NCBI RefSeq assembly: GCF_040024445.1
Contig: NZ_CP157276.1
Coordinates: 2,046,001 to 2,110,000 of the forward strand
Reading direction: 5' to 3'
Source of the DNA: Prescottella soli
Lineage (GTDB): Bacteria > Actinomycetota > Actinomycetes > Mycobacteriales > Mycobacteriaceae
DNA: 64,000 nt
The position numbers and the translations under genes were made by a program. The notes below the pieces were generated by a model that saw only the letters and a program-made list of their open reading frames with translations, did not search any database and had not been told where the DNA came from. Positions 12,876 to 58,328 of the stretch are shown piece by piece (the stretch's first letter is position 1; the number at the start of each line of letters is the position of its first letter).

Positions 12876-12911
12876 GAGGCCCCAGTTTACGGCCGGACCC
12901 GAACACCCTCG

Positions 12912-14845: not shown

Positions 14846-14879
14846 CGACGCCGCGCCCCCGATCGGGAACGCGGCGTCG
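14846..14879 (-). terminator. Hairpin terminator after purD
   Basis: A perfect 10-base stem, CGACGCCGCG pairing with CGCGGCGTCG, around a 14-base loop. It starts 20 bases downstream of the purD stop and ends before the aminotransferase start. There is no U-tract, which is common for actinobacterial terminators. Confidence 0.65.
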
Positions 14880-14898
14880 CGAAGAGTGGAGCGGCGGG

Positions 14899-16152: not shown

Positions 16153-16204
16153 AGGTGTCAGCCTACGGCCCGGCCCGAGCCGTCTCGACCACGACCTCGG
16201 CCGC

Positions 16205-16447: not shown

Positions 16448-16490
16448 GTTGCCTCCTTTCCTGGAGGGTAGGCCCGTCCGCCCGGGTCCG

Positions 16491-32777: not shown

Positions 32778-33011
32778 TTACTTCTCGGCGTTCTTCTGGT
32801 CCTGCTCCATGGCCTCACGCAAGCTCTTCGGCCGCATGTCGGTCCAGTTCTTCTCGACGTATTCGACGCACGCCTGACGCGAATCCTCGCCGAAGACGAT
32901 CCTCCAGCCCTGGGGGACCTCGGAGAACGTGGGCCACAGGGAATGCTGGTCTTCGTCGTTGACCAGCACGTAGAAGCGGCCGTCTTCGTCGTCGAACGGA
33001 TTGGTGCTCAT
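32778..33011 (-). CDS. MbtH-like NRPS accessory protein
   Basis: 77 residues. '[61 protein letters not shown]' is a full MbtH domain with the conserved NxExQxSLWP, P-x-GW and W-T-D-x-R-P-x-S-L elements. Such proteins bind and activate the adenylation domains of NRPSs, here surely the 5586-residue enzyme upstream. The ATG overlaps the stop of the ornithine hydroxylase gene by four bases. Expression should follow the iron-controlled NRPS transcript. Confidence 0.96.
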
Positions 33012-34481: not shown

Positions 34482-37400
34482 TCAGGCGACACCTCCCCCG
34501 CTCACGACCGACGCCAGCAGCGCCGACAGCTCCCGCGCCCACCCCACGACCGCGTCGCGGTCGAGCGCACCGGTGGAGAACTCGAAGTGGGCGTGCACCG
34601 GACCCGTCCCCGCCGGCTCGTAGAAACTGAGCGTCAGCTCCGCCGACGGCTGTCCGACCGGCACCGGCAGGAACCCGTCGAGCACGCCCTCGAGCGCATC
34701 GAAGCGGGCCTGCTCGTGGTGGACCAGCATCACCTGCGGATAGCGACCGCCGGCACTGGCGCCATCGAGTTCGGCTGCAACGTAGGCGAATCCGACGTCC
34801 TGATGATCGAGCGCCTCGAGATTCGAGGAACGGACGCGGGCGAGCAGTTCCTCGAAGTCCGGGGTTCCGCTCGTGTCGGTCCGCATCACGACGACGTTGA
34901 AGAAGCACCCGATCATCGGAGCGAGCGCGTCCTCGGATCGGCCCGCGACGAGCGAGCCGATCGGAATGTCGGTGCCCGCACCGCTCCTCGTCAGCAGCGT
35001 GGCCAACGCCGCCTGCAGGATCATGAACATGCTCGTCCCGGTGCGAACCGCGAGCCGGTCGATCCCGTCGTGCAGGTCGGCATCGATCTCGATCGACACC
35101 ATCTCGCGCCGCGGCTCCCGCACTCCCGCCGGGGCGGGAAGGTGGAGACGGAAGGGCATGTCGGACAGCCTGTTCCGCCAGTATTCGAGCTGTCGGGCGT
35201 GTCGGCTCGACGGATCGGCAGGGTCACCGAGCAACCGCTGCTGCCAGCGCACGTAGTCCGGGTATTCCACCGCGAGCGGCTCCCACTGCGGCGCACTGCC
35301 GCCGGCGCGGGACGCATACGCGGACAACAGGTCTCCGAGCAGCGGCACCACCGACCACTCGTCCACCGCGAGGTAGTGCATCGTGAGCAGCAGTACCTGA
35401 CGTCCGGCGTCGTCGCTCACCAGGTGCACGCGCAGCGGCGCCTCCCCGGTGAGGTCGATCCGGAGCTGTGCCAGCTCGTAGGCCCGCCGGTGCAGGTCGT
35501 CGTCGCCGACGTCGATCACGTCGATGCCCGGGCGTGGACCGTCGGAGGCGAACACCTCGGAACCGTCCGGCGCGAACACGGTTCGCAGCGGCATGTGCCG
35601 GTCGACGACGTCGTCGAGTGCCCGCGCCAGCATCTCGGGATCGATGCGCTCTCGCAGTCGTAGCGCGAGCGCATGGTCGGCCCGCGCGGACGACCCCGCG
35701 GCGCGGTGACGCAGCCAGTGCAGCCGCTGCGCCGGGGCCAGAGAGACGGGAGCGTCGTCGCCGGTCGCGACCAGCGCCGGCCGCCCGGGGTTGTCGGCAC
35801 GCCGGACGACCTCGGCCAGCTCGGCCACCGTCGGGGCGTCGAACACGTCACGGATGGTGATCTCGCGCCCGAACACGGTGCGGACCCGGCCCACGAGCTT
35901 CATCGAGGCCATCGAGTGCCCGCCGAGGTCGAAGAAGCCGTCGTGGATGCCGACCACGGGCAGGCGCAGGATCTCCGAGAAGATCTCGCACAGTTCGGTT
36001 TCGACGTCGTCGCGCGGGCTGCCGTCGCCGGCGAGGATCGCCCAGTCCGGCGCCGGCAACGCCTTTCGGTCGAGCTTGCCGTTCGGGGTGAGCGGCAGCG
36101 CACCGGGCAGCACCACGACCATCGTCGGCACCATGTAGTCCGGCAACGTCCGAGCGGCGTGCGCACGAACCTCCGACGCGTCCACGGCGGGAGCGGAATC
36201 CGATCCGTCGACGAACTCCGGTGACACGTAGCCGACCAGTCGGGTGATGCCGCCGCCGGTGTCTGCGACCACCGCGGCCTGGCTCACCCCGGGGTGACTC
36301 GCGAGCGCGGCGATGATCTCGCCGAGCTCGATCCGGAACCCGCGGATCTTCACCTGGTCGTCGACGCGGCCGAGGAAGTCGATGTTCCCGTCGGACCGCC
36401 ACCGCGCCCGGTCACCGGTGCGGTACATGCGCCCCGGCCCGTACGGATTCGCGATGAACCGGCCCGCCGTGAGCGCCGGCCGGCCCAGGTAGCCCCGTGC
36501 CAGACCGCGCCCGGCGATGTACAACTCACCGGCGATGCCCGGCGGCACCGGACGCAGCCGGTCGTCGAGGACGTAGGCCTGCTCGTTGGGGTCGGGGATG
36601 CCGATCGGCACCGACTGCGTCCACCCCGGCTGCGCCTGCCACAGCGTGTTGTTGACCGTCGCCTCGGTGAGCCCGTAGGCGGCGAGCAGGTTCAACCGCT
36701 CGGCCCAGCGACCGATCAGGTCCGGCGGCACCGTCTCGGTCCCCACCAGCACGGTGCAGCCTTCCGGCACAGCACATCCCGGCGGCAGTGCGGCCATGAG
36801 CGACGGTGGCAGGATCGCGTGCGTGACCTTGCGCTCGTGCATGAAGTCGGTGAGCTCCGGACCGGCCACGCGGGCCTCCTCCGGGACGATCACCAACGCC
36901 GACCCGGTGCACAGCGCCATCGACAACTCGAACACCGCGACGTCGAAGCCGACGGAGGCGAACTGCATGACCACCGACCCGGTGGTCAGCTTCATCCGGT
37001 CCTCGGCCGTCGCGACGAGGCTCATGATGCCCTCATGTGGCAGGACCGCGCCCTTGGGACGGCCCGTCGAGCCGGACGTGTAGATCACGTACGCCGCGTG
37101 CTCGAGCCCCGGCGGCGGCGTCGGCAGTCCGTCGGTGGTGCGACCGTAGGTTTCGGCGATCACGAGTGGATCGTCGAGCAGGACGCGCTCGAGGTCCGGC
37201 GCGGCGATGCGCGCCGATTCGGACGACGTCGTCAGCAGGATCCCGGCACCCGAATCCTCGAGCATGTACGAGATGCGGTCCGCCGGGTGGGTCAGATCGA
37301 GCGGTAGATAGGCCGCGCCCAGACGCAACACCCCGAGCACCGACGCCACCATGTCGATCGACCGCGGAACGGCCAGGCCCACCACGCTTTCCGTGCGGAC

Positions 37401-40400
37401 CCCGCGTGCCGCGAGGACGGCCGCGATGCTCCTGGACCGCTTGTCGAGCTCGGCGTACGTCGCCTCGCCGTTCCGGTCCGCGACGGCCACCGCCGTGGGG
37501 GTCTCCCGCGCCCACCGCTCGAACGCCTCCGGCAGCGTCAGCTCCTCGACGAGACGGGAGGTGTCGTTGAAGGCGCGCAGCACCGCGTCGCGCTCGCCGC
37601 CCAGGAACACGTCGACGTCGGACACCCGGGTCGCGGGATCCGCGGCGACGGCCCCGAGGACCGCGACCTGGCGGCGGGCCATGCGGTCGACGGTGTCGCG
37701 GTCGAACAGGTCGGCGCTGTACTCGAGCCGCAACCGCACCCGCTCCTCGTCGAGGAATTCGGTCCAGTTGAACACCAGGTCGAACTTGGCGGTGCGCTCC
37801 TCGATCGACACCGGCGCGAGCGCCAGGTCGGGCGACGGCGCCGGGTCGGCGGTGCGGCTGTGGTAGCCGACCATCACCTGGAACAGCGGGTTCCGGGCCA
37901 GCGTGCGAGCCGGGTTGAGTCGCTCGACGACGGATTCGAACGGCACGTCCGCGTGCGAGAACGCGGCCAGGTCGAGGTCCTTGACCCGGGCCAGCAGTTC
38001 CACGAACGTCGGGTCACCCGAGACGTCGGTGCGGAGCACCACCGTGTTGACGAAGAAGCCGACCAGGTCGTCGAGTCCCTGCTCGGCACGCCCGGCGACC
38101 GGCGCACCCAACGGCAGGTCGTCGCCGGCGCCGAGCCGCTGCAGCAGGGTGGCCGACGCAGCGTGCAGCACCATGAACATGCTGGCGCCGTGCTCGCGGG
38201 CGAGTGCCCGCAATGCGCCGGTCGTATCGGCGTCCAGGTCGAGTTCGATTGCGCCACCGGCGAAGCTGGGGCGCGCGGGCCGGGTGCGATCCGCCGGGAG
38301 CGCCAGTTCCTCCGGTGCACCGTCGAGGACGCCGGCCCAGTAGTCGAGCTGGCCGCTGATCAGCGAGTCGGCGTCGGACGGCTCGCCGAGCAGCGCCCGC
38401 TGCCACAGCGTGAAGTCCGCATACTGCACCGGCAGCGGCGCCCACTCCGGCGCCGCGCCGCGGACGCGTGCCGCGTAGGCGACCATCAGGTCGCGCAGGA
38501 ACGGCCGGTCCGACCACTCGTCGGTGGCGATGTGGTGCAGGACCAGGGCGAGCACGTGCTCGCCCTGACCGATACGGATCACCGTGGCGCGCACGGGAAT
38601 CTCGGTGGTGAGGTCGAACGGGCGCCCGACCGCGGCGGCCACCAGCGCGGGTGTCTCATCCGGCTCCGCCTCGACGACGGCCACCTCGGGCCGCGCGTCG
38701 GCCAGGATCACCTGGACCGGCTCCCCGTCGTGTTCGTCGAACACGGTGCGCAGCACCTCGTGCCGGGCGACGACGTCGGCGAGTGCCTCCGTGAACGCGG
38801 ACGCGTCGAGGTCACCGCGCAGGCGCAGCACGATCGGGAAGTTGTAGGCGGCAGAATCGCCTTCCATCTGCTGGATCACCCACAGCCGCTGCTGCGCCGG
38901 CGAGAGCGGCAGCTGCTCGGGTCGCTCCCCCGCCACCAGCACCGGTCGGGTCGACTCTCCGCGCCCGAAGATCCGACGCGCGAGCTCGGCGACGGTGGGT
39001 GCCTCGAACAGGTCCCGCATCGTCAGCTCGGCAGACAGTTCCGCGCGCGCCCGGCTGATCAGCCGGGTGGCGAGCAGCGAGTGCCCGCCCAGGTCGAAGA
39101 AGTTGTCGTCGATGCCGAGCTCGACGTCCAGCTCGAGGACCTCGCCGAACAGTCGGCACAGGGCCTCCTCGACGGCGTCCCGCGGCGCACGGGATTCGTC
39201 CGAACCCTGTCCGAGCACCGTGTCGGCGGACGGCAGCGCCCGGACGTCGAGCTTGCCGTTGACGGTCATGGGCAGCGTGTCGACCTCGATGAAGGCGACC
39301 GGAACCATGTAGTCCGGCAGCACCTTCCGCGCGTGAGCGGCGACGTCGACGGCCGCGCCCGCGCGCGCGGGCACCACGTAGGCGACCAGACGCTTGACCC
39401 CGCCCGGTCCGGCGTCGGCGATCACCGCGGCCTGGCGCACCGCGTCGAGCGCGGCCAGCACGGATTCGACCTCGCCCAGTTCGACTCGGTGCCCGCGGAT
39501 CTTCACCTGGTCGTCGGTGCGGCCGAGGAAGTCGATGTTGCCGTCGGACCCGCGCCGGACCAGGTCGCCGGTGCGGTACATCCGGGCTCCGCCGCCCACG
39601 ATCGGGTCGGCGACGAACCGCTCGGCGGTGAGGCCGAACCGGTGGAGGTAGCCGCGCGCGAGCCCGACACCGGAGATGTACAGCTCGCCCGGCACGCCGT
39701 CGGCGACCGGCCGCAGCCAGCCGTCGAGGATGTGCGCGGCGGTGTTCCAGATCGGCCGGCCCACCGTCGGCGTGGCGCTGTCCGCCGTACCGCCGCCGAG
39801 CGTGTTGATCGTGTACTCGGTGGGGCCGTACAGGTTGTAGCCGGACGTGCCGTCGGTGTCGCGCAACGCGTCCCACACCTGATCGGAGACGGCCTCGCCG
39901 CCGAGCAGCACCAGCGGCGGTCGGTGCCGTCTCGGTCCGTCGTCGAGCAGGCCCTCCTCGATGAGATGCCGCGCGTACGTGGGGGTCACGTTGACGACGT
40001 CGATCTCGTGCGCGTCGCCGTACGCGACCAGCGCCCGTGCGTCACGCCGCAGGTCCTCGTCGCAGATGTGCACCTCGTGGCCCTCGACGAGCCAGAGCAG
40101 CTCCTCCCACGACATGTCGAACGCGAACGACACGGTGTGCGCGATGCGCAGCGTGCGCCCGCCCGACCCGCGCACGACCGGTTCGAAGATCGCCTCGCGG
40201 TGGTTGAACTGCATGTTCGTCAGGCCGCGGTACGGCGTCACGACGCCCTTGGGTCGGCCGGTGGAGCCGGACGTGTAGATCACGTAGGCGGGATGGTCCA
40301 GGCGGCCGGGGGTGCCGGGCGCGAAGCCGCCGAGTTCGGTGTCGGTGAGCGCGGACCCGTCGGCGGCGCGGAGCGTGTCGACGGCAGTCGCGTCGTCGAG

Positions 40401-43400
40401 GACGATCGTGTCCACCATTGCCGCCGAGAGGCTTTCGGCGACTGCCGAGGTGGTCACCATCGTCACCGGGCGAGCGTCGTCGAGCATCCCGACCAGACGC
40501 TCGGCCGGGTGGTCCAGTTCGAGCGGCAGGTACGCGGCACCGGTCCGCAGCACCGCGAACAGCGCGACGACGGTCTCCACCGACCGCGGCAGCGCCAGCG
40601 CCGCGATCTTCTCGGGACCGGCACCGTGCGCGAGCAGCACCCGCACCATCCGGTTGATCCGGGCGTCCAGCTCGGCGTACGTGACGGTGACGTCGCCGAA
40701 CACCAGCGCGGTGGTGTCCGGGATCTGCTGCGCGGTCTCGGCGAACAGGTCCGCGATCGTCTTCTCCGGCAACGGGTGTGTGGTCTCCGTGCGGTACGCC
40801 TCGATGCGGCTGCGGTCCGACGGCGCGAGTGTGTCGGTCCGGCCGACGAGCACGTCGACGTCATCCGCGAACTGTTCGAGCAGTCGGACGAATCCCGTGA
40901 GCATGCGCTCGGCGTCCTTCGCCGCCACCGTGTCCGGGTGGAACTCGAACTTCACCTTGGTCTCGGCGCCGGGCGTGACGACCACCGTCAGCGGGTAGTG
41001 CGTGTGGTCGATGCTGTCGCCGCCGCTGATGTCGTGCGCGGCGTGCAGCGCCGAGACCTGGTTCTCGTCGACGAAGTTCTGCAGCACGTACAGCACGTCG
41101 AACAGTTCGCGGTGCTCGCTCGTCCGCTGGATCGCCGCGAGGCCGAGGTAGTCGTAGGGCATCAGCTCCAGCCGCTCGGACTGGGTGCGACGCATCAGAT
41201 CGGCGACGGACTCGTTCGGCCGCAGCGACATCCGCACCGGCACGGTGTTGAGGAACATGCCGGCCACCGAGTCGATTCCCGGCACCTCCGGCGGGCGGCC
41301 CGCCACCGTCGTGCCGAACACGACGTCACCGCGCCCGGTCGCACCGGCCAGCACCACTCCGAGCGCCGCATTGAGGATCGCGTTGAACGTGACGCCCGCC
41401 CGCGCGGCCTGCGCGCGCAGGCGCTCGCCGAGGTCGCGGGACAGCACGGCGTCGCGGCGGTCGGGCAGACCCGTCGGCTCGCCGGTTCGCCGGGCGAGCA
41501 GCGTCGGCTCCTCGAGCCCGGACAGCGCGCGCCTCCACGCCGTCTCGGCGGCGCCGCCGTCGCGGCCGGCGAGCCAGGACAGGTAGTCGTCGAATCCGCC
41601 GTCGGGCGTGACGAATCCGGTGTCGTCGCCGCCGGTCTCGTACAGCGCGAGCAGCTGGCTGACGACCAGGCCGTTGGACCAGCCGTCCCACAGCAGGAAC
41701 TGGCGGTTGATCACCAGGCGGTCGCGGTCCTCGCCGAGGCGCAGCACCGTCGCCCGCCACAGCGGCGGGGCCGCTAGGTCGAACGGCGTGCGCCGATCCT
41801 CGAGCATCAGCTGCGCGGCCCGCTCCTCGCGGGCGGCGGCGTCGAGGTCGCGCAGATCCACCTCGGTGATCGGGACGTCGAGTCCGGCGCTGACGAACTG
41901 CACCGGCGCGGTCAGTCCCGCACTGGCGAATCCGGCACGCAGCGTCGGGTTGCGGCGCTGCAGGGTGCGGATCGCGGCGGCCAGTCGCTCCAGGTCCAGG
42001 TGCCGGTCGAAGTCCAGCGAGAACTGGGCGGTGTAAATGTCGGCGCCGTCGGCGATTCCGGCCTGGAAGTACAGGCCCTCCTGCAGCGGCGACAGCGGCC
42101 AGATGGTCTCGACGCCCGCGGGTGCGGCGTCGACGACGGTGTCGATCTCGCCCTGGGTGAGGGCCGCCAGCGGGACGTCGGACGGGGTGAGCGCGGCGGG
42201 CCCGTCGTGCTGCGAGGCGAGGACGACCAGTTCACTCAGTGCGGCCGCCCAACCGTCGCTCAGGGCGCGGGCGTCCGCGGCGGAAAGGTCCGGTTCGGAC
42301 CAGCCGAACACCGCGCTCAGCACGGGCCCGTCCTGGGTGTCCTCGCACAGCGCGTTGACGAGGAGCCGGTACGGGCCGCCCATGTCGGCGTCGGGATCGG
42401 TTGCCAGGACGTCGGTTTCGGGCGCCGTGGTCCACGGCCCGACGAGGCCGGCGGGCATCCGGCCCAGGTAGTTGAACAGCACCTGCGCCGACGCACCCGC
42501 GGCCAGCATCCCGGCGGTGCGGGCGTTGGCGTACCGCAGCATGCCGTAGCCGATGCCGCCGTCGGGCGCCGCGCGCAGCGCCTCCTTGACGGACTTGAGC
42601 GCATCGACGCCCTCGGTGCCGCCGGGAAGGCGCACCGGGCTGATGTTGGTGAACCAGCCGACGGTGCGGGACAGGTCGATGCCCGGCGCCAGCTCCTCAC
42701 GACCGTGCCGCTCGAGATCGACCAGCAGGTCCGACGCGCGGCCCTGCCCGGCGAACCAGCGGGTGACGGCGATGCGGAGCGCGGTCACCAGGACGTCGGT
42801 GACGTCGGCGTATGCGAGCGCGGGCACGGCGGTCAGCACGGCCTCGGTGTCGGCGACGGTCAACCGCACGGTGCGGCTCGATCCGGTGCCGATCGTGACG
42901 TCGCCCTGCGCGGACGGCACCAGTTCGGCTCCGGGAGCGGTGATCTCGCGCCAGTGCGCCAGCTCACGCAGCCGGGCGGGCTGCTGGGCATGCGCGGTGA
43001 CGAGGTCCGCGTACGCCTTCAGCGAGGTGCCGACGGGGTCGAGGGCGGCGGGCAGACCCGATCGGGCCGCCACCCACGACATCGGCAGGTCCTCGAGCAG
43101 CACCCGCCACGAGACACCGTCGACCACGAGGTGGTGGGCGACCAGGAGCAGGCGTCCGAGGTCGTGCTCGCCCGCGTCGAACCACACCGCCTCGACCACG
43201 GCGCCGGCCTCGGGATCGAGGCGGTCGGCCGCGGCGGACGACTCGGCCGCGATCACCGCACGCAACTGCGCATCGTCGTGGCCGGTGACGTCCACGCGGC
43301 GCAGCGACGGCGCGACGGCGCCGCGCTCGGCGATGTGCAGCGACCACACCCCCGGCGCGTGCCGGGTCAGGCGCTGCCGCAGCCCGTCGTGGTGGTCGAG

Positions 43401-46400
43401 GACGGACCGCAGTGCGGCCGTGAGGTTCTCGGCCGTCGCGCCGGCGGGGCTGTGCACCAGCACCGCCTGGTTGAAGCGGTCGGTGCCGCCGCTCCACTCC
43501 GAGAGCCGGTGCACGACCGGCATGGGCAGGGTGTCACCGGTGGTGACGATCGGCGTGCGTGTCGGCGTGGCCTCGGTCGCGGGTGCGTCGGCGTCGCCGA
43601 TCAGCCGCGCCAGCGCCCGCGCGGTGCGCTGCTCGAAGATCTGCCGCGGGGTGATCGAGATGCCGTCGCGGCGAGCGAGGTTCACCAGACGGATCGCGAG
43701 GATGCTGTCGCCGCCGAGCGCGAAGAAGTCGTCGTCCTCCCCGACGGTGTCGCGTCCGAGGACCTCGGCGACCAGCCCGGCGACGGCGGACGCCTGACCG
43801 GTCGGGGCCGAACTGTCCGGGCTCGTGGACGTTTCGACGACAGGTGCGGGAAGCGCCCGTCGGTCGAGCTTGCCACTGGGGCTCAGCGGCAACGCCTCGA
43901 CCACGACCAGTGCCGTGGGCACCATGAACTCCGGCAGCGCCCGTGCGACGTGACGGCGGACGGCGTCGGTGTCGAGCGCGGGGTCGGCGACGAGGTAGCC
44001 GACGAGCTGCTGGTGGCCGGGAATGTCCTCCCGGATCACCGCGGCCGCGTGGGCCACCTCGGGGTGCGTGGCCAGCCGGGCCTCGATCTCCCCCAGCTCG
44101 ATGCGGAAGCCGCGCAGCTTCACCTGATCGTCCGCGCGGCCCAGGTACTCGACCGCACCGTAGGCGCCACGGCGGACGACGTCACCGGTGCGGTACATGC
44201 GCTCGCCGGGGGCGCCGAACGGATCGGCGACAAAACGGTCGGCGGTGACATCGGGGCGACCGAGGTAGCCGCGCGCCAGCTGCGGGCCCGCGAGATAGAG
44301 CTCCCCCGCGCCTCCGTCGGTGACGGGCTGCAGGTACGGATCCAGAACGTACAGAGCGGTATTCGAGACCGGGTAGCCGATCGGGACAGCGGCGGCGTCG
44401 GCCGGCAGGTCCTGCACGGCCGACGCGAAGCTGACCTCCACCGACGCCTCGGTGGGGCCGTACAGGTTGTCGAGCAGCGCCCCGGGCAGAACCTCGGCGA
44501 ACCGACGCGCCACCGACAGCGGGAGCGCCTCACCGCTGGCCGCGACCACGCGCAGCCCCACACACGCCCGGGCCTCGGGCTCGGCGAGGAACAGCTCGAG
44601 CATCGACGGCACGAAATGGGCACGGGTGATCTTCGCGTCGACGATCAGCTCGGCCAGGTACTGCGGATCGCGGTGGCCGTCGGGCCGCGCGATCACGAGG
44701 GTCGCGCCGGCGAGGAGCGGCCCGAAGAACTCGGGCACCGAGACGTCGAAGCTCGACGGGGTCTTCTGCAGCACCCGGTCGGTGGGCAGGATCGGCCGGA
44801 ACGTCTGCATCCACAGCAACCGGTTGACCACACCCGCGTGCGGGACGACGACGCCCTTGGGTCGTCCGGTGGAGCCGGACGTGTAGATCACGTACGCCGG
44901 GTGCTGCGGGCACAGCGCGACCTCGGGCCGCTCGGTCGGGTATGCGTCGAGGTCGATCTCGTCGACGCGGATCGTCTCGGCGCCGGCATCCGGGAGGCCC
45001 GCGGCGACGGCGGCGGACGTCAGCACGCACACCGGGGCCGAGTCCTCGAGCATGTACGCGAGCCGCTCGGCCGGGTAGCCCGTGTCGAGGGGCACGTAGG
45101 CGCCGCCGGCCTTGCCGACCGCGAGCAGCGCCACCATCAGCTCGAGCGACCGCGGCAGCGCGACGGCCACCTTGGCCTCCGGTCGCACACCGCGGTCGAT
45201 CAGCAGGTGCGCCAGTCGGTTTGCGCGCTCGTGCAGCTGCCGGTAGGTGAGCGACCGCCCCTCGAACACCACCGCGGTGGCCTCGGGGGTGCGCGCCGCC
45301 TGCTCCTCGAGCAGCGCGGGCACGGTCGTGGACGGGAACTCGGTGCGCGGCGCCGGCGCGGGGCGCCCGGCAAGCGCGAGCGCCGCGACCGGGCGGTCGA
45401 TCGAGTCCGGCAGCCCCGACAGCAGGGCGACGAGCCCGTCCGCCATCTGTGCGGCGGTCGCGTCGCCGACGCGCGCGGCGTCGTACTTGACCTCGAACCG
45501 CAGCCGGTCGCCGGGCACCGCGACGACCGTCAGCGGGTACGGCGGATGCTCGTCGAACCGGATGCCGGTGAGTCGCACGGTGCCGGACGGATCCGCGATG
45601 GCCGTGTTCCCGATCGGGTAGTTCTCGACCACGACGAGCGTCTCGAAGAGTTCCTGCAGACCGGTGAGGCGGCGCAGTTCACCGAGTCCCACGTACTGGT
45701 GCTCGAGCAGCGCCGACTGCTCCGACTGCCAGCGCGTCAGGACGTCCGCGGCCGTCTCGTCGGGGCGCAGGCGGAGCCGGGCGGGCACGGTGTTGATGAA
45801 CAGTCCGACCATGGACTCGATGCCGGGCAGGTCGCCGCCGCGGCCCGACACGGTCGAGCCGAACAGCACGTCGCGGCGGCCGGTGAGGCGGGCCAGCAGC
45901 AGACCCCACGCGCCGTGGACGAAGGTGCCGGTGGTCAGCCCGCGGTCGCGACCCAACCGATCCAGCGCCTCGGTCGCGGCTACCGACAGCGAGACCTCCA
46001 CGCTGCGCACGCCCGCCGCTCCCGTGGCCGGGGCACCGGGCAGCGCGGGCGGCTCACCCGCCTCGGCGAGCGCCTGTCGCCACACCGCGAGCGACGCGTC
46101 ACGATCACGGGACGCCAACCATCCCAGGTAGTTCCGGTACGGCGCGGGCGCCGGCAGCGCGAGCGGGGTGCCGGACGGGGCGTAGAGCGCCATGAGCTCC
46201 CGCAGCATCACCGGCACCGACCAGCCGTCCGCGACCACGTGGTGGATCGACTGCAGCAGGAGGAACTTCGACGGTTCGACCCGGACCAGCGTGTAGCGCA
46301 CCAGCGGCGGACGCTCGAAGTCGAAGCCGCGCAACCGATCCTCGGCGAGCACGCGGTCGACGGTGCCCGACAGGTCGGGGTCACCGGACAGGTCGAGCAC

Positions 46401-49400
46401 GGTCATCGGGACGTCCGCCCGCGCCGAGACCACCTGCACCACACGGCCGTCGGAGAGCGGGCGCAGCGCCGCCCGGAGCACATCGTGCCGGTCGACGACG
46501 CCCTGCAGCGCCCGGTGCAGCGCGACCGCGTCGACCTCGCCGGTCAGCTCGACGATCTGCTGGACCACGTACGGATCGGCCACGGAGTCGGCGACGCCGT
46601 CGCGCTCGTAAACGCTGTGGAAGTAGATGCCGTCCTGCAGCGGAGTGGTCGGCAGGATGTCGGCCAGCGTCCGGGCGGATTCCGCGACGTGGTCGACGTC
46701 GGCCTGAGCCAGCGGCACCAGCGGGAAGTCCGACGGTGTGTGACCGCCGTCTGCCGCGGCGTCGGCGATCTCGCGCAACGCGGCGCTCCACCGGTCGGCG
46801 AACTCGTCGACCTCGGCCCGCGACAGCACTCCCCCGGCCCAGGTGAGCGTGGTGCGCAGCGTCGACCCGTCGGGGCCGTCGGTGGCGATCACGTCGACGG
46901 TGAGGGCGTGCCCCATCGGCATCGCCGGATCGCTTGCTCCGCCGGTCGCGATGGGCAGCCAGTCGCGGCCGGCGCCGGCCGCGACGCGGCCGAGGTAGTT
47001 GAACAGCACCGGCGACGCGGTGTCGGTCGCGAGCTCGTCTCCGCACTCGGTGAGGTATCGCAGTGCACCGTAACCGAATCCGTTGTTCGGGACGCGGCGG
47101 AGCTGCTCCTTGACGGACCTGAGCGCCGACGGGACGTGATCCGACGCGACGTCGAGGCGCACCGGGTAGACGGTGGTGAACCAGCCGACGGTGCGGGAGA
47201 TGTCGAGCGCCGTGCCGGACCGCCGGACGAGGTGCTCCTCGCGCCCGTGGCCCTCGAGGTCCACCAGGACATCCGCGCCCGCAGCGCCACGCCAGCGCCG
47301 CAGCGCGACGGCCAGTGCGGCGACGAGGACGTCACCGGCGCCCGCGTGGTACGCGGCGGGCACGTCGGCGAGCAGCGGCGCGGCGATGTCCGACGTCGTC
47401 TCCACCGTCAGGGTGTCCGCGGTGGACCACGTGTCGGTGGCGGGTTCCAGCGCGCGCGAACCTATCTCGAGCGCGCCGGGCGCCGTCACCGACCGCCAGT
47501 AGCCGAGTTCGTCGTCGAACGCGCCGGACCGCGCGCGCTCGTCCAGCAGGTGCGCCCACCGGCGCAGCGACGTCCCGACCGGAGGTAGGTCGACATCGGC
47601 CGAGCCGGTCGTGGACTCTGCCTCGGCGAGGATCGCGGTGGCGGCACGCGCGAAGTCCTCCAGCAGGATCCGCCACGACACGCCGTCGACGACGAGGTGA
47701 TGCGCGACGAGCAGCAGTCGTCCGGGCGCGTCGTCGGAGCGGAACAGGGCGGCCTGCAACATGATTCCGGACTCGGGATCGAGCAGGTCGACGATGACCT
47801 CGCGATCGGCGGCCACCGCGGCGTCCACGTCGCCGTCGGGCAGGTCCGACACGTGGACCGTCACCGGCTGGTCCGTCGCCGGAACCGTGAGAACGCCACG
47901 CTCACGGTCCCAACGGGCCCGCAGCGCGTCGTGTCGCGCCACGACCGCCTGCAGCGCCGCCGTCGCGGTCTCCTCGTCGAGCCCGGCCGGGGTCTGCACC
48001 AGCACCCACTGGTGGAAGGTGCGCACGTCGGTTCCGGCGGCGCACACGCGCGCCACGACGGGGATCGCCGGGACCTCGCCCACCGCGACGTCGTCGGCAT
48101 CCTGCGCGTCCGCGACCCGGCCGTCGACCACGGCCGCGAGCGCGCCGGCGGTCCGGAGTTGGAAGATGTCGCGCGCGGTGATCGAGAAGCCGTCGCGCCG
48201 AGCCTGATTGACGAGTGCGATCGCGACGATGCTGTCGCCGCCGAGGGCGAAGAAGTCGTCGGTGACGCCCACCTGTTCGAGGCTGAGCACGTCGCCGATC
48301 AACGCGCACAGCCTTGACTCGAGCGCGGTCCGCGGTGCGACGTGCTCGCTCGCCGCGGCCAGGTCGGGCGCCGGCAGCGCCCGGCGGTCGAGCTTGCCGT
48401 TCGGGGTGAGCGGGAACTCGTCCAGGACGACGAAGGCCGACGGCACCATGTACTCCGGCAGCTTGTCCGACGCCCACGCCCGCAGCGTCTCCGGGCCGAG
48501 TGAGCGGCCGGTGTCCGCAACCACGTACGCCGCAAGGTAGTTGGCCCCGGCCGGTGTCTTGCGGACCAGGACAGCGCTGTGCCGCACGTCCGGGTTGGAC
48601 GCGAGCGCGGCCTCGACGTCCTCGAGTTCGAGACGCATGCCGCGGATCTTCACCTGGTTGTCGGCGCGGCCGAGGAAGTCGAGGGTGCCGTCGGCGGCCC
48701 ACCGCGCCAGGTCGCCGGTGCGGTACAGGCGGGAACCGTCGTCCGCGAACGGGTTCGCGACGAAGCGTGACGCCGTCAGCCCGGGCGCGCCGACGTAGCC
48801 GCGGCCCAGCAGGTAGCCGCCCGCGTACAGTTCGCCGCCGATGCCCTCCGGGACCGGGTGCAGCTGCGAATCCAGCACGTACAGCTGGGTGTTGGGGTTG
48901 GGGCGGCCGATGGACGTCGCGATGCGGGCGGCGTCGTCGCGGTAGATCACGTGCGAGACACCGATCGTGGCCTCGGCCGGGCCGTAGCCGTGGTACAGCG
49001 TCGTCGACAGCTGTCGCCGGAACCGGTCGAACAGGTCCGGGGTGAGCACCTCGCCGCCGCACCACACGTGCCGCAGACCCGACAGCAGGTCGGTGCCGCG
49101 GGCCAGGTCGAGCAGCACGTCGAGCATCGACGACACCAGGTAGACGAACGTGACGCGTTCGCGGGCAATGAGATCGAGCAGGTACTGCGGGTCGCGCTCA
49201 CCGCCGGACTCGGTGACGATCAGGCGTCCGCCCGAGACCAGGGGCAGCAGGATCTCGTTGACGGAGATGTCGAACGACAGCGGCGCCTTGAACAGCGAGG
49301 CGTCGTCGGCGCCGAAGCCGAGGACTCGTTCGCGCTGCCACAGCAGGCGCGCACAGATCGCCTCGTGCCGGATCATCGCCCCCTTGGGCCGGCCGGTGGA

Positions 49401-51242
49401 GCCGGACGTGAAGATCACGTACGCGAGGCGGCGGCCGTCGAAACCGCCCTCCGGCAGCTCGATCGGATACTCACCATGCGCCCACGCATCGAGGTCGACG
49501 TCCACCGCGTCCGCACCCGCATCGACGCCGCCCGCACCGGTGAGCACCAGTCGGGCGCCGGCGTCGGCGAGCACGGAATCACGTCGTTCGCGCGGCCACG
49601 ACGGGTCCAGCGGGACGAACGCCCCGCCCGCGCACAACACCGCGAGCAGGCCGACGACCATCTCGGCGGACCGCGGAAGTCCCACGGCGACAACCTCTTC
49701 CGCTGCGAGTCCGCGCTCGCGCAGGTGGTGCGCGAGTTGCGCCACCCGTTCCGACAGCTCGCGGTAGGTCAGGCGGCGATCGCCGGCCACCAGCGCCTCG
49801 GCGTCGGGGGCGCGACGGGCGACCTCGGCGAACAGTTCCGGGACGGTGCACGAGGGCTGGGGTTCGGCCGTGTCGTTCCAGTCGATCAGGACGCGGCGGC
49901 GTTCGTCGTCGGTCATCGGCTCGAGCGCACGCACGGTGGCCATCGGGTTCCGGAGGAACTGGGACACGAAGTGCGCCAGACGTTCCTCGTGCCGCAGCAG
50001 TTCGGCGCGCTGCCCGGCCGGGGCGCGCAGGTCGATGCGGATCGGCTCGCCGTCCTCGCCGCCCTGGATCGAGAAGTCGAGGTCCCGGACCGGCCCGGTG
50101 ACCGAGCCGCGGATGTGCGCGGGGCTGCCGGCGAACTCGAGCACGTGCTCGAACATCATCGAGTTGATGCCCGGACCGAACACACGCCGGTCGGGCTCGA
50201 TCGCGCGTACCTCGCGGGCGAGGTCCTCGCCACGGAAACGCCCGTGGCGCAACGTTCCCACCAGTCGCGCGTCGATCGCCCGCGCGAGATCGCCGACGGT
50301 GGCGTCCGGATCCACGTGGAACGTCACCGGCAGGATCGTCGACGCCATGCCGGGCGTGCGGCGCATCGCGCGGCCGACGCGGGCGGCCATCGGCACCGAG
50401 ACCGTGAGGTCGCGCAGGCCCGTGACGCGATGGAGATACGCGACAATCAACGCCATCGGCAGCCGAGTGCGACGGATTCCCGCGGCGGACGCGAACTCGT
50501 ACAGTGCGTCCGCGATGGCGGCGTCGATCGTGACGGTCGTGGACTCGGGCGTTTCCGAGGCGTCGGCGCCGGCTGCGCAGATCTGCGGCGGCTCGGGCGC
50601 GTCGAGGATCTCGGCCAGCCAGTAGTCCCGGTCGGCCTCGAACCGCGCCGAGCCGCGGTAGTCGACGTCGGCGTCGACGAGGTCGCGCAGCGCCCACGCC
50701 CCGGCCGTCGACTCGAGGCCGGGATCGCCGTAGCGCGCGACCATGTCGGCGACAACCAGCGAGATGCCGAAGCCGTCGATGATGCTGTGGTGGTAGCGCT
50801 GGTACCAGACGGTGTGGTCGTCGGCGAGCCGCAGCAGTGCGTGCGCGAACAGCGCGTCGTCGCCCGTGACCTCGACGACGGTCGCCATGTCCCGGTCCAT
50901 CCACTCCTGCGCGGCGGCCTCGGGATCGGCGGCGTCGCGCACGTCGACCACCTCGAGCGGCCACGCGTCGGACGGCGCCGGCACCTGCCGCAGCGTCCGG
51001 TCCGCCCCGACCCGGAACCGAATGTGGAGTGCCTCCGCGTGGCCGACGGTCCGGCGGATCGCCTCGACCGCGCGGTCGAGGTCGATGGGTCCGGTGGCCT
51101 CCACGACCAGGGAGAGGTTGTAGATGGTGCTCTGCGGATCCAACTGCTGCGCGACGAGGACCTCGGACTGCGCCGCGGTGATGGGCAGACCCGCGACGGG
51201 CGCGTCGAGCATGGGGGCAGCCGGCAGGTGGTCCGCAGACAT
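34482..51242 (-). CDS. Four-module hydroxamate-siderophore NRPS (C-A-T-E-C-A-T-E-C-A-T-C-A-T-C)
   Basis: 5586 residues; domains by landmark (approximate). C1 15-455 (HHSIIDG). A1 470-970. T1 near 1000 (LGGDS). E1 1040-1490 (HHLVVDG). C2 1525-1960 (HHVVADG). A2 1985-2480. T2 near 2511. E2 2575-3040. C3 3045-3490 (QFLLWDG, HH lost). A3 3510-4020. T3 near 4051 (LGGHS). C4 4100-4540 (HHIATDE). A4 4560-5070. T4 near 5106. C5 5150-5586 (HYLAVDE, second His lost). All four A domains keep SGSTGRPKG and YRTGD. Hand alignment to GrsA gives codes DINYWGGIGK (A1, as coelichelin formyl-hydroxyornithine), DVPHASLVEK (A2, Ser-like), DMENLGLINK (A3, as coelichelin hydroxyornithine) and DVFILGAVNK (A4, unassigned). 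Predicted product: D-fhOrn-D-Ser-L-hOrn-X tetrapeptide. There is no TE or reductase domain. It resembles the tetramodular rhequichelin synthetase of R. equi as I recall it. An IdeR-type box lies about 60 bases upstream. Confidence 0.96.
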   Translation of the reverse strand: MSADHLPAAPMLDAPVAGLPITAAQSEVLVAQQLDPQSTIYNLSLVVEATGPIDLDRAVEAIRRTVGHAEALHIRFRVGADRTLRQVPAPSDAWPLEVVDVRDAADPEAAAQEWMDRDMATVVEVTGDDALFAHALLRLADDHTVWYQRYHHSIIDGFGISLVVADMVARYGDPGLESTAGAWALRDLVDADVDYRGSARFEADRDYWLAEILDAPEPPQICAAGADASETPESTTVTIDAAIADALYEFASAAGIRRTRLPMALIVAYLHRVTGLRDLTVSVPMAARVGRAMRRTPGMASTILPVTFHVDPDATVGDLARAIDARLVGTLRHGRFRGEDLAREVRAIEPDRRVFGPGINSMMFEHVLEFAGSPAHIRGSVTGPVRDLDFSIQGGEDGEPIRIDLRAPAGQRAELLRHEERLAHFVSQFLRNPMATVRALEPMTDDERRRVLIDWNDTAEPQPSCTVPELFAEVARRAPDAEALVAGDRRLTYRELSERVAQLAHHLRERGLAAEEVVAVGLPRSAEMVVGLLAVLCAGGAFVPLDPSWPRERRDSVLADAGARLVLTGAGGVDAGADAVDVDLDAWAHGEYPIELPEGGFDGRRLAYVIFTSGSTGRPKGAMIRHEAICARLLWQRERVLGFGADDASLFKAPLSFDISVNEILLPLVSGGRLIVTESGGERDPQYLLDLIARERVTFVYLVSSMLDVLLDLARGTDLLSGLRHVWCGGEVLTPDLFDRFRRQLSTTLYHGYGPAEATIGVSHVIYRDDAARIATSIGRPNPNTQLYVLDSQLHPVPEGIGGELYAGGYLLGRGYVGAPGLTASRFVANPFADDGSRLYRTGDLARWAADGTLDFLGRADNQVKIRGMRLELEDVEAALASNPDVRHSAVLVRKTPAGANYLAAYVVADTGRSLGPETLRAWASDKLPEYMVPSAFVVLDEFPLTPNGKLDRRALPAPDLAAASEHVAPRTALESRLCALIGDVLSLEQVGVTDDFFALGGDSIVAIALVNQARRDGFSITARDIFQLRTAGALAAVVDGRVADAQDADDVAVGEVPAIPVVARVCAAGTDVRTFHQWVLVQTPAGLDEETATAALQAVVARHDALRARWDRERGVLTVPATDQPVTVHVSDLPDGDVDAAVAADREVIVDLLDPESGIMLQAALFRSDDAPGRLLLVAHHLVVDGVSWRILLEDFARAATAILAEAESTTGSADVDLPPVGTSLRRWAHLLDERARSGAFDDELGYWRSVTAPGALEIGSRALEPATDTWSTADTLTVETTSDIAAPLLADVPAAYHAGAGDVLVAALAVALRRWRGAAGADVLVDLEGHGREEHLVRRSGTALDISRTVGWFTTVYPVRLDVASDHVPSALRSVKEQLRRVPNNGFGYGALRYLTECGDELATDTASPVLFNYLGRVAAGAGRDWLPIATGGASDPAMPMGHALTVDVIATDGPDGSTLRTTLTWAGGVLSRAEVDEFADRWSAALREIADAAADGGHTPSDFPLVPLAQADVDHVAESARTLADILPTTPLQDGIYFHSVYERDGVADSVADPYVVQQIVELTGEVDAVALHRALQGVVDRHDVLRAALRPLSDGRVVQVVSARADVPMTVLDLSGDPDLSGTVDRVLAEDRLRGFDFERPPLVRYTLVRVEPSKFLLLQSIHHVVADGWSVPVMLRELMALYAPSGTPLALPAPAPYRNYLGWLASRDRDASLAVWRQALAEAGEPPALPGAPATGAAGVRSVEVSLSVAATEALDRLGRDRGLTTGTFVHGAWGLLLARLTGRRDVLFGSTVSGRGGDLPGIESMVGLFINTVPARLRLRPDETAADVLTRWQSEQSALLEHQYVGLGELRRLTGLQELFETLVVVENYPIGNTAIADPSGTVRLTGIRFDEHPPYPLTVVAVPGDRLRFEVKYDAARVGDATAAQMADGLVALLSGLPDSIDRPVAALALAGRPAPAPRTEFPSTTVPALLEEQAARTPEATAVVFEGRSLTYRQLHERANRLAHLLIDRGVRPEAKVAVALPRSLELMVALLAVGKAGGAYVPLDTGYPAERLAYMLEDSAPVCVLTSAAVAAGLPDAGAETIRVDEIDLDAYPTERPEVALCPQHPAYVIYTSGSTGRPKGVVVPHAGVVNRLLWMQTFRPILPTDRVLQKTPSSFDVSVPEFFGPLLAGATLVIARPDGHRDPQYLAELIVDAKITRAHFVPSMLELFLAEPEARACVGLRVVAASGEALPLSVARRFAEVLPGALLDNLYGPTEASVEVSFASAVQDLPADAAAVPIGYPVSNTALYVLDPYLQPVTDGGAGELYLAGPQLARGYLGRPDVTADRFVADPFGAPGERMYRTGDVVRRGAYGAVEYLGRADDQVKLRGFRIELGEIEARLATHPEVAHAAAVIREDIPGHQQLVGYLVADPALDTDAVRRHVARALPEFMVPTALVVVEALPLSPSGKLDRRALPAPVVETSTSPDSSAPTGQASAVAGLVAEVLGRDTVGEDDDFFALGGDSILAIRLVNLARRDGISITPRQIFEQRTARALARLIGDADAPATEATPTRTPIVTTGDTLPMPVVHRLSEWSGGTDRFNQAVLVHSPAGATAENLTAALRSVLDHHDGLRQRLTRHAPGVWSLHIAERGAVAPSLRRVDVTGHDDAQLRAVIAAESSAAADRLDPEAGAVVEAVWFDAGEHDLGRLLLVAHHLVVDGVSWRVLLEDLPMSWVAARSGLPAALDPVGTSLKAYADLVTAHAQQPARLRELAHWREITAPGAELVPSAQGDVTIGTGSSRTVRLTVADTEAVLTAVPALAYADVTDVLVTALRIAVTRWFAGQGRASDLLVDLERHGREELAPGIDLSRTVGWFTNISPVRLPGGTEGVDALKSVKEALRAAPDGGIGYGMLRYANARTAGMLAAGASAQVLFNYLGRMPAGLVGPWTTAPETDVLATDPDADMGGPYRLLVNALCEDTQDGPVLSAVFGWSEPDLSAADARALSDGWAAALSELVVLASQHDGPAALTPSDVPLAALTQGEIDTVVDAAPAGVETIWPLSPLQEGLYFQAGIADGADIYTAQFSLDFDRHLDLERLAAAIRTLQRRNPTLRAGFASAGLTAPVQFVSAGLDVPITEVDLRDLDAAAREERAAQLMLEDRRTPFDLAAPPLWRATVLRLGEDRDRLVINRQFLLWDGWSNGLVVSQLLALYETGGDDTGFVTPDGGFDDYLSWLAGRDGGAAETAWRRALSGLEEPTLLARRTGEPTGLPDRRDAVLSRDLGERLRAQAARAGVTFNAILNAALGVVLAGATGRGDVVFGTTVAGRPPEVPGIDSVAGMFLNTVPVRMSLRPNESVADLMRRTQSERLELMPYDYLGLAAIQRTSEHRELFDVLYVLQNFVDENQVSALHAAHDISGGDSIDHTHYPLTVVVTPGAETKVKFEFHPDTVAAKDAERMLTGFVRLLEQFADDVDVLVGRTDTLAPSDRSRIEAYRTETTHPLPEKTIADLFAETAQQIPDTTALVFGDVTVTYAELDARINRMVRVLLAHGAGPEKIAALALPRSVETVVALFAVLRTGAAYLPLELDHPAERLVGMLDDARPVTMVTTSAVAESLSAAMVDTIVLDDATAVDTLRAADGSALTDTELGGFAPGTPGRLDHPAYVIYTSGSTGRPKGVVTPYRGLTNMQFNHREAIFEPVVRGSGGRTLRIAHTVSFAFDMSWEELLWLVEGHEVHICDEDLRRDARALVAYGDAHEIDVVNVTPTYARHLIEEGLLDDGPRRHRPPLVLLGGEAVSDQVWDALRDTDGTSGYNLYGPTEYTINTLGGGTADSATPTVGRPIWNTAAHILDGWLRPVADGVPGELYISGVGLARGYLHRFGLTAERFVADPIVGGGARMYRTGDLVRRGSDGNIDFLGRTDDQVKIRGHRVELGEVESVLAALDAVRQAAVIADAGPGGVKRLVAYVVPARAGAAVDVAAHARKVLPDYMVPVAFIEVDTLPMTVNGKLDVRALPSADTVLGQGSDESRAPRDAVEEALCRLFGEVLELDVELGIDDNFFDLGGHSLLATRLISRARAELSAELTMRDLFEAPTVAELARRIFGRGESTRPVLVAGERPEQLPLSPAQQRLWVIQQMEGDSAAYNFPIVLRLRGDLDASAFTEALADVVARHEVLRTVFDEHDGEPVQVILADARPEVAVVEAEPDETPALVAAAVGRPFDLTTEIPVRATVIRIGQGEHVLALVLHHIATDEWSDRPFLRDLMVAYAARVRGAAPEWAPLPVQYADFTLWQRALLGEPSDADSLISGQLDYWAGVLDGAPEELALPADRTRPARPSFAGGAIELDLDADTTGALRALAREHGASMFMVLHAASATLLQRLGAGDDLPLGAPVAGRAEQGLDDLVGFFVNTVVLRTDVSGDPTFVELLARVKDLDLAAFSHADVPFESVVERLNPARTLARNPLFQVMVGYHSRTADPAPSPDLALAPVSIEERTAKFDLVFNWTEFLDEERVRLRLEYSADLFDRDTVDRMARRQVAVLGAVAADPATRVSDVDVFLGGERDAVLRAFNDTSRLVEELTLPEAFERWARETPTAVAVADRNGEATYAELDKRSRSIAAVLAARGVRTESVVGLAVPRSIDMVASVLGVLRLGAAYLPLDLTHPADRISYMLEDSGAGILLTTSSESARIAAPDLERVLLDDPLVIAETYGRTTDGLPTPPPGLEHAAYVIYTSGSTGRPKGAVLPHEGIMSLVATAEDRMKLTTGSVVMQFASVGFDVAVFELSMALCTGSALVIVPEEARVAGPELTDFMHERKVTHAILPPSLMAALPPGCAVPEGCTVLVGTETVPPDLIGRWAERLNLLAAYGLTEATVNNTLWQAQPGWTQSVPIGIPDPNEQAYVLDDRLRPVPPGIAGELYIAGRGLARGYLGRPALTAGRFIANPYGPGRMYRTGDRARWRSDGNIDFLGRVDDQVKIRGFRIELGEIIAALASHPGVSQAAVVADTGGGITRLVGYVSPEFVDGSDSAPAVDASEVRAHAARTLPDYMVPTMVVVLPGALPLTPNGKLDRKALPAPDWAILAGDGSPRDDVETELCEIFSEILRLPVVGIHDGFFDLGGHSMASMKLVGRVRTVFGREITIRDVFDAPTVAELAEVVRRADNPGRPALVATGDDAPVSLAPAQRLHWLRHRAAGSSARADHALALRLRERIDPEMLARALDDVVDRHMPLRTVFAPDGSEVFASDGPRPGIDVIDVGDDDLHRRAYELAQLRIDLTGEAPLRVHLVSDDAGRQVLLLTMHYLAVDEWSVVPLLGDLLSAYASRAGGSAPQWEPLAVEYPDYVRWQQRLLGDPADPSSRHARQLEYWRNRLSDMPFRLHLPAPAGVREPRREMVSIEIDADLHDGIDRLAVRTGTSMFMILQAALATLLTRSGAGTDIPIGSLVAGRSEDALAPMIGCFFNVVVMRTDTSGTPDFEELLARVRSSNLEALDHQDVGFAYVAAELDGASAGGRYPQVMLVHHEQARFDALEGVLDGFLPVPVGQPSAELTLSFYEPAGTGPVHAHFEFSTGALDRDAVVGWARELSALLASVVSGGGVA

Positions 51243-51302: not shown

Positions 51303-51321
51303 TTAGGATAGGCTAACCCAC
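51303..51321 (-). promoter_or_regulatory. Iron box (IdeR/DmdR1) upstream of the NRPS
   Basis: TTAGGATAGGCTAACCCAC matches 16 of 19 bases of the actinobacterial iron-box consensus TTAGGTTAGGCTAACCTAA. It ends about 61 bases upstream of the NRPS ATG and probably covers the promoter, so ferrous IdeR would shut the operon down under iron sufficiency. Confidence 0.88.
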
Positions 51322-51371: not shown

Positions 51372-52172
51372 CTAGCCGGCGAGGAAGTCGAGGACCACCT
51401 TGTTCACTGCCTCCGGGCGCTCGAGGTAGCCGTAGTGCCCGGTGTCCGGGATCTCCTGATACACCGCACCCGGGATCGCGTCGGCCACCTCCTTCGACAG
51501 GAAGGGCGGGATCATGCGGTCGTCGGCGAAACCGACGGACAGGCACGGGCGGGTGATGCCGCGGTAGGCCTGCGCCCGGTCGAAACTACGATCCATCGCG
51601 AGCTGGGCACGCACACCGGGCGAGGACTTGCCGGTGGAGAACTCGAAGACGTCGAGCCAGTCGCGGGCCGCATGCTGGTCGGCGAGCGTGGCCGGCGACA
51701 GGTTCATCAACGCGGTGATCGCGGCGCGGTACTTCGCCGGCAGGGTGATTCCCGAATCCTCGAGCTCGCGCTCGCCCTCGTTGAGGGTGCGCTGGAACTG
51801 GTCCATGCGGGCGTGACCGGCGAGGAACACCGCCTTGCGGACCAGCTCCGGGCGCGCGAGGGTCAGCTCCTGCGCGATGCGTGCGCCCATCGACGTGCCG
51901 ATGACGTGAGCGGGGCCGCCGAGCAGCTCGATCAACCCGGCCGTGTCGGCCACCAGGTCCTCGATCGTGATGCCGCCGACACTCTCCCCGGACGGCGCGA
52001 TGCCGCGGTTGTCGAACGTGCACACGCGGTAGCCCGCCGCCTGCAGCGCCGGCACCTGGTGCAGGTCCCACACACGGCCGGGACTTCCTGTACCCATGAT
52101 CAACACGACGAGGTCGCCCTCACCCTTGACCTGGTAGTTCAGAGGAATTCCGTTGATGGTGGCGATGGGCAT
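51372..52172 (-). CDS. Alpha/beta hydrolase
   Basis: 266 residues. 'VVLIMGTGSPGRVWDLHQVPALQAAGYRVCTFDNRGIAPS' (oxyanion region), nucleophile elbow GTSMGAR, an acid in 'SVGFADDRMIPP', and His in 'PDTGHYGYLERPEAV'. It is a complete Ser-Asp-His hydrolase of the general AB-hydrolase-1 type. GGAAGG lies upstream of the ATG. It is divergent from the formyltransferase across an iron box and sits directly upstream of the NRPS. Candidate roles are release of the finished peptide, proofreading of stalled chains, or hydrolysis of the ferri-siderophore. The sequence does not decide between them. Confidence 0.88.
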   Translation of the reverse strand: MPIATINGIPLNYQVKGEGDLVVLIMGTGSPGRVWDLHQVPALQAAGYRVCTFDNRGIAPSGESVGGITIEDLVADTAGLIELLGGPAHVIGTSMGARIAQELTLARPELVRKAVFLAGHARMDQFQRTLNEGERELEDSGITLPAKYRAAITALMNLSPATLADQHAARDWLDVFEFSTGKSSPGVRAQLAMDRSFDRAQAYRGITRPCLSVGFADDRMIPPFLSKEVADAIPGAVYQEIPDTGHYGYLERPEAVNKVVLDFLAG

Positions 52173-52207: not shown

Positions 52208-52226
52208 ATAGGGTTGGGTAACCTAA
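52208..52226. promoter_or_regulatory. Iron box between hydrolase and formyltransferase genes
   Basis: ATAGGGTTGGGTAACCTAA matches 15 of 19 bases of the iron-box consensus. It lies 35 bases upstream of the hydrolase ATG and 59 bases upstream of the formyltransferase TTG, so one IdeR site can control both divergent promoters. Confidence 0.82.
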
Positions 52227-58309: not shown

Positions 58310-58328
58310 TTAGGTAAGTAGACCCTAA
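58310..58328 (-). promoter_or_regulatory. Iron box upstream of the ABC exporter pair
   Basis: TTAGGTAAGTAGACCCTAA matches 14 of 19 consensus bases, including the full TTAGGT and CCTAA ends. It lies in a longer perfect palindrome with arms CCAGTTAGG and CCTAACTGG (58306-58332). It is 24 bases from the exporter ATG, so IdeR would cover the promoter or start. It also lies 92 bases upstream of the divergent 57-residue gene. Confidence 0.8.

Follow-up and report, generated by a model that had tools for sequence, protein, structure and literature searches.

The locus described here very probably directs the iron-regulated biosynthesis of a rhequichelin-type tris-hydroxamate siderophore, similar to erythrochelin and foroxymithine. 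It lies in a window of 64 kb, the whole stretch of DNA analysed, from the 5.48 Mb single-contig genome of Prescottella soli. The locus is built around a four-module non-ribosomal peptide synthetase (NRPS; 34482..51242, minus strand), whose fourth substrate, X, is most likely N5-acyl-N5-hydroxyornithine, as judged from the code of its adenylation domain. The original prediction presented the locus as a serine-containing relative of coelichelin. The observation behind it is confirmed, and its interpretation is partly supported, being right in outline. The locus belongs to a known type, and the tetrapeptide prediction appears to be essentially in print already.

The NRPS is encoded by an open reading frame of 5586 amino acids with an ATG start and a single, terminal stop codon. 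Condensation, AMP-binding and PP-binding stretches were found by Pfam in both halves of the protein, a whole-genome Condensation search placed seven Condensation stretches in the frame, and core motifs located four adenylation (A) domains and four carrier serines. Read together with homology, these give the order C1-A1-T1-E1-C2-A2-T2-E2-C3-A3-T3-C4-A4-T4-Ct. All domains are on the minus strand, and the edges of the C and A domains are approximate. The first module contains the N-terminal condensation domain C1 (49908..51194), with an intact HHSIIDG motif, A1 (48363..49862) and the epimerase E1 (46698..48032). It is followed by C2 (45348..46637; HHVVADGWS), A2 (43848..45287) and E2 (42168..43487). 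The third module consists of C3 (40818..42107), whose motif NRQFLLWDGWS (41676-41708) is devoid of histidine at either place of HHxxxDG, and A3 (39228..40712). C4 (37608..38942; HHIATDEWS) and A4 (36048..37547) are succeeded by the terminal condensation domain Ct (34485..35792), which has Tyr in place of the second His (HYLAVDEWS). The epimerase model TIGR01720 matched E1 with 107.7 bits and E2 with 81 bits (cut-off 74.2), so the earlier statement that no modules but 1 and 2 end in an epimerase holds; C3 and Ct gave no match to this NCBIfam model.

The substrate codes were read from one multiple alignment of the four A domains with GrsA residues 235-336 (PDB 1amu). The nine positions read DINYWGGIG, DVPHASLVE, DMENLGLIN and DVFILGAVN for A1 to A4, the same letters as in the original prediction. 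The tenth residue (Lys517) lies beyond the GrsA stretch and is given as Lys by convention, which is backed by the motif NGKLD in A1, A3 and A4 and SGKLD in A2. Aligned one at a time to the short GrsA stretch, the domains read DINYWGGIT, DVPHASLVT, DMWNLGLIS and DVFIVVAVN, with one or two deviations per code. We interpret these as end effects of the 102-residue reference, since the core-motif reading agrees with the multiple alignment. The codes DINYWGGIGK (A1) and DMENLGLINK (A3) equal the codes of the coelichelin synthetase CchH, and would select N5-formyl-N5-hydroxyornithine (fhOrn) and N5-hydroxyornithine (hOrn); DVPHASLVEK (A2) is Ser-like. Codes were assigned to fhOrn, hOrn and acetyl-hOrn from earlier literature; searches on A-domain codes themselves, and on erythrochelin with adenylation and hydroxyornithine, found no paper. 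As far as codes tell, the first three positions of the peptide proposed originally, D-fhOrn-D-Ser-L-hOrn-X, stand, with Ser likely. The fourth code does not remain unassigned, as it was there: DVFILGAVNK is what module 4 usually carries in the erythrochelin/foroxymithine/rhequichelin family, and the substrate of A4 is accordingly expected to be an N5-acyl-hOrn. A non-hydroxamate residue as X was considered and set aside on the family comparison of module-4 codes.

The hydroxylase and the formyltransferase on which the prediction relied are both present. The former is an N-monooxygenase of the Lys_Orn_oxgnase family (33008..34345, minus strand; PF13434, 1.7e-99), presumably an ornithine N5-hydroxylase; its best NCBIfam model falls far below the cut-off, so that the specificity for ornithine rests on context. 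It overlaps by 4 bases with the gene of an MbtH-like protein (32778..33011, minus strand; PF03621, 2e-29). The formyltransferase (52286..53224, plus strand; PF00551, 1.4e-31), for which a TTG start was picked by its ribosome-binding site, is divergent from the NRPS. Two ABC proteins, each combining a membrane and an ATPase part (54811..56592 and 56589..58286, minus strand), are probable siderophore exporters; their NCBIfam models are below cut-off. Directly upstream of the NRPS is an alpha/beta hydrolase (51372..52172, minus strand). It was matched in 13 of the 14 genomes of the genus, at 87-92% in the 12 others, and occurs in two pieces in the fourteenth (G003). Because it is kept in congeners devoid of the NRPS, it probably stands outside the pathway; a role as the pathway thioesterase was rejected for the same reason, and the NCBIfam model that fits it best, that of an enol-lactonase, is also below cut-off.

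Three sites resembling the box of the iron regulator IdeR were found in the window with the IdeR consensus, allowing at most 5 mismatches in 19 positions; 10 simple shuffles yielded one such site in total. All three stand before pathway genes: one with 3 mismatches some 60 bases ahead of the NRPS start (51303..51321), one with 4 before the formyltransferase (52208..52226) and one with 5, 24 bases before the start of an ABC exporter (58310..58328). At the same threshold the box before the NRPS is present in all eight full-length loci of the genus and in none of four reduced loci described below. These boxes, the MbtH gene and the terminal C domain were absent from the original prediction. The boxes are consistent with control of the locus by iron.

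Among the named genomes returned, in which genomes very near the window's own may be missing, the nearest is Prescottella agglutinans, with 91-92% identity over the last 1027 residues of the NRPS. P. equi DSM 20307 shows 83% over the same stretch. Its codes are DINYWGGIG, DVPHASLVE, DMENLGLIN and DVFILGAVN, so that the comparison with the R. equi rhequichelin synthetase suggested at the outset gives a match at all 36 aligned residues; to judge by its sequence this orthologue (G004 = L035) is most likely the rhequichelin synthetase. The full gene is present in seven other congeners, and all 28 of their codes are identical to those of the window. The genomes named in this comparison are taken as G001, P. 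agglutinans; G004, P. equi DSM 20307; G005, R. hoagii AcN21-7; G006, sp. OK519; G011, R. spongiicola; G013, R. xishaensis; and, in another genus, G263, R. oryzae. In 14 named Rhodococcus and Prescottella loci, covering modules 2-4 (A1 lies outside) and including six genomes that are also among the seven congeners, the A3 and A4 codes are invariant. The A2 code reads DVPHASLVE in nine, DVPHNSLVD in four and DVPHGSLVE in one (L045), and two of its places separate the equi from the erythropolis types. This variation confined to A2 fits the pattern given in PMC5550956, where three of the four A domains of the rhequichelin and rhodochelin synthetases are described as highly conserved and the sole differences as two active-site residues of A2. 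PMC7358434 describes a predicted erythrochelin cluster as shared by 27 of its R. erythropolis/R. qingshengii genomes. According to PMC7824959, rhequichelin still lacks a detailed characterisation.

A related layout, likewise closed by a terminal C domain, was found in six genomes of another family of the order (L160-L163, L168 and L169) and on a Streptomyces plasmid (L195). All seven carry DM.NLGLIN at module 3, and six have DVFILGAVN at module 4; the motif scan of L160 detected no A4. At module 2, L160, L168, L169 and L195 have the Ser-like DVWHFSLVD, which L161-L163 do not, and fewer E domains than in the window occur in L161, L168, L169 and L195. Their module-1 code is DVW..GAVN, as opposed to DINYWGGIG in the window. 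The shared layout and module-4 code place the window in the erythrochelin/foroxymithine/rhequichelin type. They also bear on a different reading, in which modules 1-3 act as in coelichelin synthesis, X is an ordinary amino acid and a linear acid is released. The A1 and A3 codes, equal to those of CchH, and the lack of E domains in modules 3 and 4 would suit such a peptide. We regard it as very unlikely, however, since the A4 code recurs in erythrochelin-layout synthetases and fits the same frame, DV...GAVN, as the module-1 codes of these synthetases, for which an acyl-hydroxyornithine is expected, as in erythrochelin. Moreover, the nearest thing to a coelichelin synthetase that was read, from Nonomuraea gerenzanensis (L198), is trimodular (DINYWGGIG, the Thr-like DFWNIGMVH and DM.NLGLIN) and has no terminal C domain. 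As the best frame for the window, kinship with coelichelin is thus set aside: the fourth module and the terminal C domain are both absent from L198.

The full NRPS is present in 8 of the 14 genomes of the genus, and the formyltransferase orthologue occurs in exactly the same eight; the other six gave no match at 1e-40, although G003 holds a remnant. The hydroxylase is found in these eight genomes; beyond them, G002 and G010 have the whole gene, G007 a cut form (residues 255-445) and G003 a remnant. The product might instead be a precursor or a side branch of another siderophore, the peptide itself not being the physiological one. Cross-talk of this kind is known for rhodochelin; PMC5550956 states that rhodochelin depends on genes elsewhere and groups its cluster with that of rhequichelin. 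The linkage of formyltransferase and full NRPS within the genus argues against it, as do PMC2947987 and PMC13332983, in which rhequichelin is treated as an independent siderophore, and such a role appears highly improbable.

The acyl group on X is less certain. The siderophore-type acetyltransferase family PF13523 gave no match in the window's genome at E 0.001, which makes formyl likelier than acetyl. Members of this family are present in 9 of the 14 genomes of the genus, namely in five of the eight with the full NRPS and in four of the six without it, so that its absence here leaves room for acetylation by another enzyme. A search for malonyl-CoA decarboxylase, as in the erythrochelin route, gave no match anywhere, controls included. 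A product of the same layout with N5-acetyl- in place of N5-formyl-hydroxyornithine as X, as at position 4 of erythrochelin, seems rather unlikely. It draws on the identity of DVFILGAVNK with the module-4 code of erythrochelin-layout synthetases and on the spread of PF13523 in the genus. Opposed to it, besides the lack of a PF13523 match, is the formyltransferase relative found no more than 3 kb from the NRPS in three (G157, G264 and G276) of five other-family genomes of this layout in which the A4 code was read; in the other two (G175 and G303) it lies elsewhere in the genome. A relative of this enzyme is present in all 26 further genomes searched, beside both kinds of A1 code, and its presence alone does not say which module uses formyl-hOrn.

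In the proposed pathway, ornithine would be N5-hydroxylated by the adjacent monooxygenase, and part of the hydroxyornithine would be N5-formylated by the divergent formyltransferase. The NRPS would then load fhOrn and Ser, both epimerised, followed by hOrn and N5-acyl-N5-hydroxyornithine, the acyl group being more likely formyl than acetyl. C3 is predicted to couple D-Ser to the N5-hydroxyamine of hOrn, which would bring the hydroxamates to three. The terminal C domain would then close a diketopiperazine between residues 3 and 4, yielding D-fhOrn-D-Ser-cyclo(L-hOrn-L-acyl-hOrn). In erythrochelin the third-residue hOrn is acylated on its N5-hydroxyamine and its alpha-amine is free for the diketopiperazine. 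Three hydroxamates together with a diketopiperazine of residues 3 and 4 require the alpha-amine of hOrn-3 to be free, and we infer that C3 must acylate the N5-hydroxyamine. The computed mass of the product is 533.2445 or 575.2551 with two formyl groups, and 547.2602 or 589.2708 with acetyl on X. The corresponding [M+H]+ values are 534.2518 and 548.2675 for the cyclic forms, 576.2624 and 590.2780 when an N-terminal acetyl is added, and 552.2624 and 566.2780 for the linear acids; ferric forms would be heavier by 52.91.

The second His of the HHxxxD motif is the catalytic His of condensation domains. It was surveyed in one alignment of 119 C-A pairs, collected by similarity to C3-A3 or to the C-terminal part of the window's NRPS; the rows include many close relatives, and R. 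oryzae is present twice (L045 and L167). The C domain that precedes a DM.NLGLIN A domain has no His in the second-His column in 45 of 47 rows, the residue being Leu, Phe, Val or Met. The two exceptions (L171 and L172) are second hydroxyornithine modules behind C4-like domains. In the other C domains the second His is kept in all 70 rows that have letters there, one of them with Pro at the first place; 2 gapped rows were set aside. The first-His column of the 45 His-less rows holds His in 25, Gln in 18 and Arg in 2. The rows with Gln or Arg come from Rhodococcus, Prescottella and others of the window's own family, within which G310 keeps His. With the exception of these rows, a shift of the loop by one residue could bring the upstream His into the active site. 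QFLLWDGWS itself is present in C3 of all 22 sequences, the window included, with six genomes counted twice. The same C3 motif occurs with and without a preceding E domain (without it in L168 and L169), so the motif follows the acceptor and not a D-donor. In the terminal C domain, Tyr stands in for the second His in the window and nine others of 12 rows, and in six of the eight full genes of the genus.

We tentatively propose a class of C domains that acylate hydroxyornithine at its side-chain N-hydroxyamine and do so with no catalytic His. C2 and C4, with the full HHxxxD, would make alpha-amides, C3 (QFLLWDG) the bond between Ser and the N5-hydroxamate, and Ct (HYLAVDE) the diketopiperazine. 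According to this proposal the second His would be dispensable in C3 and Ct because neither an alpha-effect nucleophile nor the closure of a six-membered ring needs a general base. The missing second His may, on the other hand, mean that the terminal C domain is inactive. A limited literature search met no record of histidine-less hydroxyornithine C domains, which may be in print all the same. If the proposal is true, the motif alone would tell which hydroxyornithines are linked through N5, and the connectivity of such siderophores could be read from genomes.

In four congeners (G002, G007, G010 and G012) the NRPS is represented by a frame of 870-989 amino acids, measured between stop codons, with matches to C1 and Ct: L073:14692-17328 in G002, L072:14464-17076 in G007, L074:13849-16818 in G010 and L075:14531-17224 in G012. 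These genes occupy the syntenic place, with the hydrolase upstream of them and the MbtH gene downstream. Each has two Condensation stretches and no other Pfam family; everything from A1 to T4 is gone, and the edges coincide with domain borders. The second His of C1, read by eye, is lost in all four (P, Q, E and E). G003, a frameshifted assembly of low quality in which rpoB is broken too, was searched by pieces only. It contains pieces of C1, E2 and Ct together with the remnants of hydroxylase and formyltransferase (L144, about 12691-16736), and showed no match above 60 bits to any A or T domain of the window. G008 gave no NRPS match at 1e-90. A search of the family matched 37 of 251 genomes, and frames of the reduced type were found in the four congeners only. 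In G003 and the four reduced loci the MbtH gene has hardly changed, presumably owing to a function with other NRPSs encoded in these genomes. The window's own genome has 59 Condensation matches and several other very large NRPS frames, of up to 8971 amino acids.

The reduced genes are apparently under purifying selection, as estimated from their substitutions. The dN/dS ratios (NG86; C1/Ct) are 0.33/0.23 for G007-G002 and 0.20/0.21 for G010-G012, compared with 0.11-0.20 for six pairs of full genes; across the reduced pairs (G007-G010) they are 0.42/0.36, and a comparison of full with reduced gene (G000-G007) gives 0.30/0.23. When the observed substitutions were placed at random, 2 and 5 of 500 trials kept an open frame, and the mean number of amino-acid changes was 259 and 298, against 159 and 163 seen. 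The reduced proteins therefore probably remain in use, unless a large part of the divergence is older than the deletion. Devoid of A and T domains and of the formyltransferase, the reduced loci should be unable to make the siderophore. A single common origin of the four genes was not rejected (p-AU 0.235 for Ct and 0.466 for C1 and Ct together), and the tree of C1 alone groups them with support 81/98. A gene cut to its condensation domains alone constitutes a natural experiment on such domains without carriers.

The prediction itself is of small weight, since the same is already known from R. equi and many Rhodococcus. What is gained is the placing of the fourth code as the family module-4 code, a terminal C domain that makes a cyclic end likely, and exact masses for the product. 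With the coelichelin synthetase CchH the locus shares the codes of A1 and A3, an E domain at the end of each of the first two modules, a hydroxylase and a formyltransferase. The coelichelin synthetase is unlike it in being trimodular, in activating Thr at module 2 and in having no terminal C domain, if its Nonomuraea counterpart is a guide; in place of three modules for fhOrn-Thr-hOrn, the window has four modules and a Ser-like A2. The closest known system is RhbC of Rhodococcus (Prescottella) equi, an orthologous locus with the same codes, provided that the DSM 20307 gene is rhbC. For RhbC, Miranda-CasoLuengo et al. (2012) reportedly predicted a product of N5-formyl-N5-hydroxyornithine, serine, N5-hydroxyornithine and N5-acyl-N5-hydroxyornithine. 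The erythrochelin synthetase EtcD of Saccharopolyspora erythraea is alike in its four modules, with Ser second and hOrn third, its terminal C domain, MbtH and ornithine monooxygenase, and presumably has the same order as the window, C-A-T-E-C-A-T-E-C-A-T-C-A-T-C. Erythrochelin carries N5-acetyl-hydroxyornithine at positions 1 and 4. The window differs from this type by DINYWGGIGK at module 1, where the homologues of this layout have DVW..GAVN, and by a formyltransferase in the cluster. Compared by structure alone, the predicted product with two formyl groups would equal the Streptomyces siderophore foroxymithine, either complete or lacking its N-terminal acetyl.
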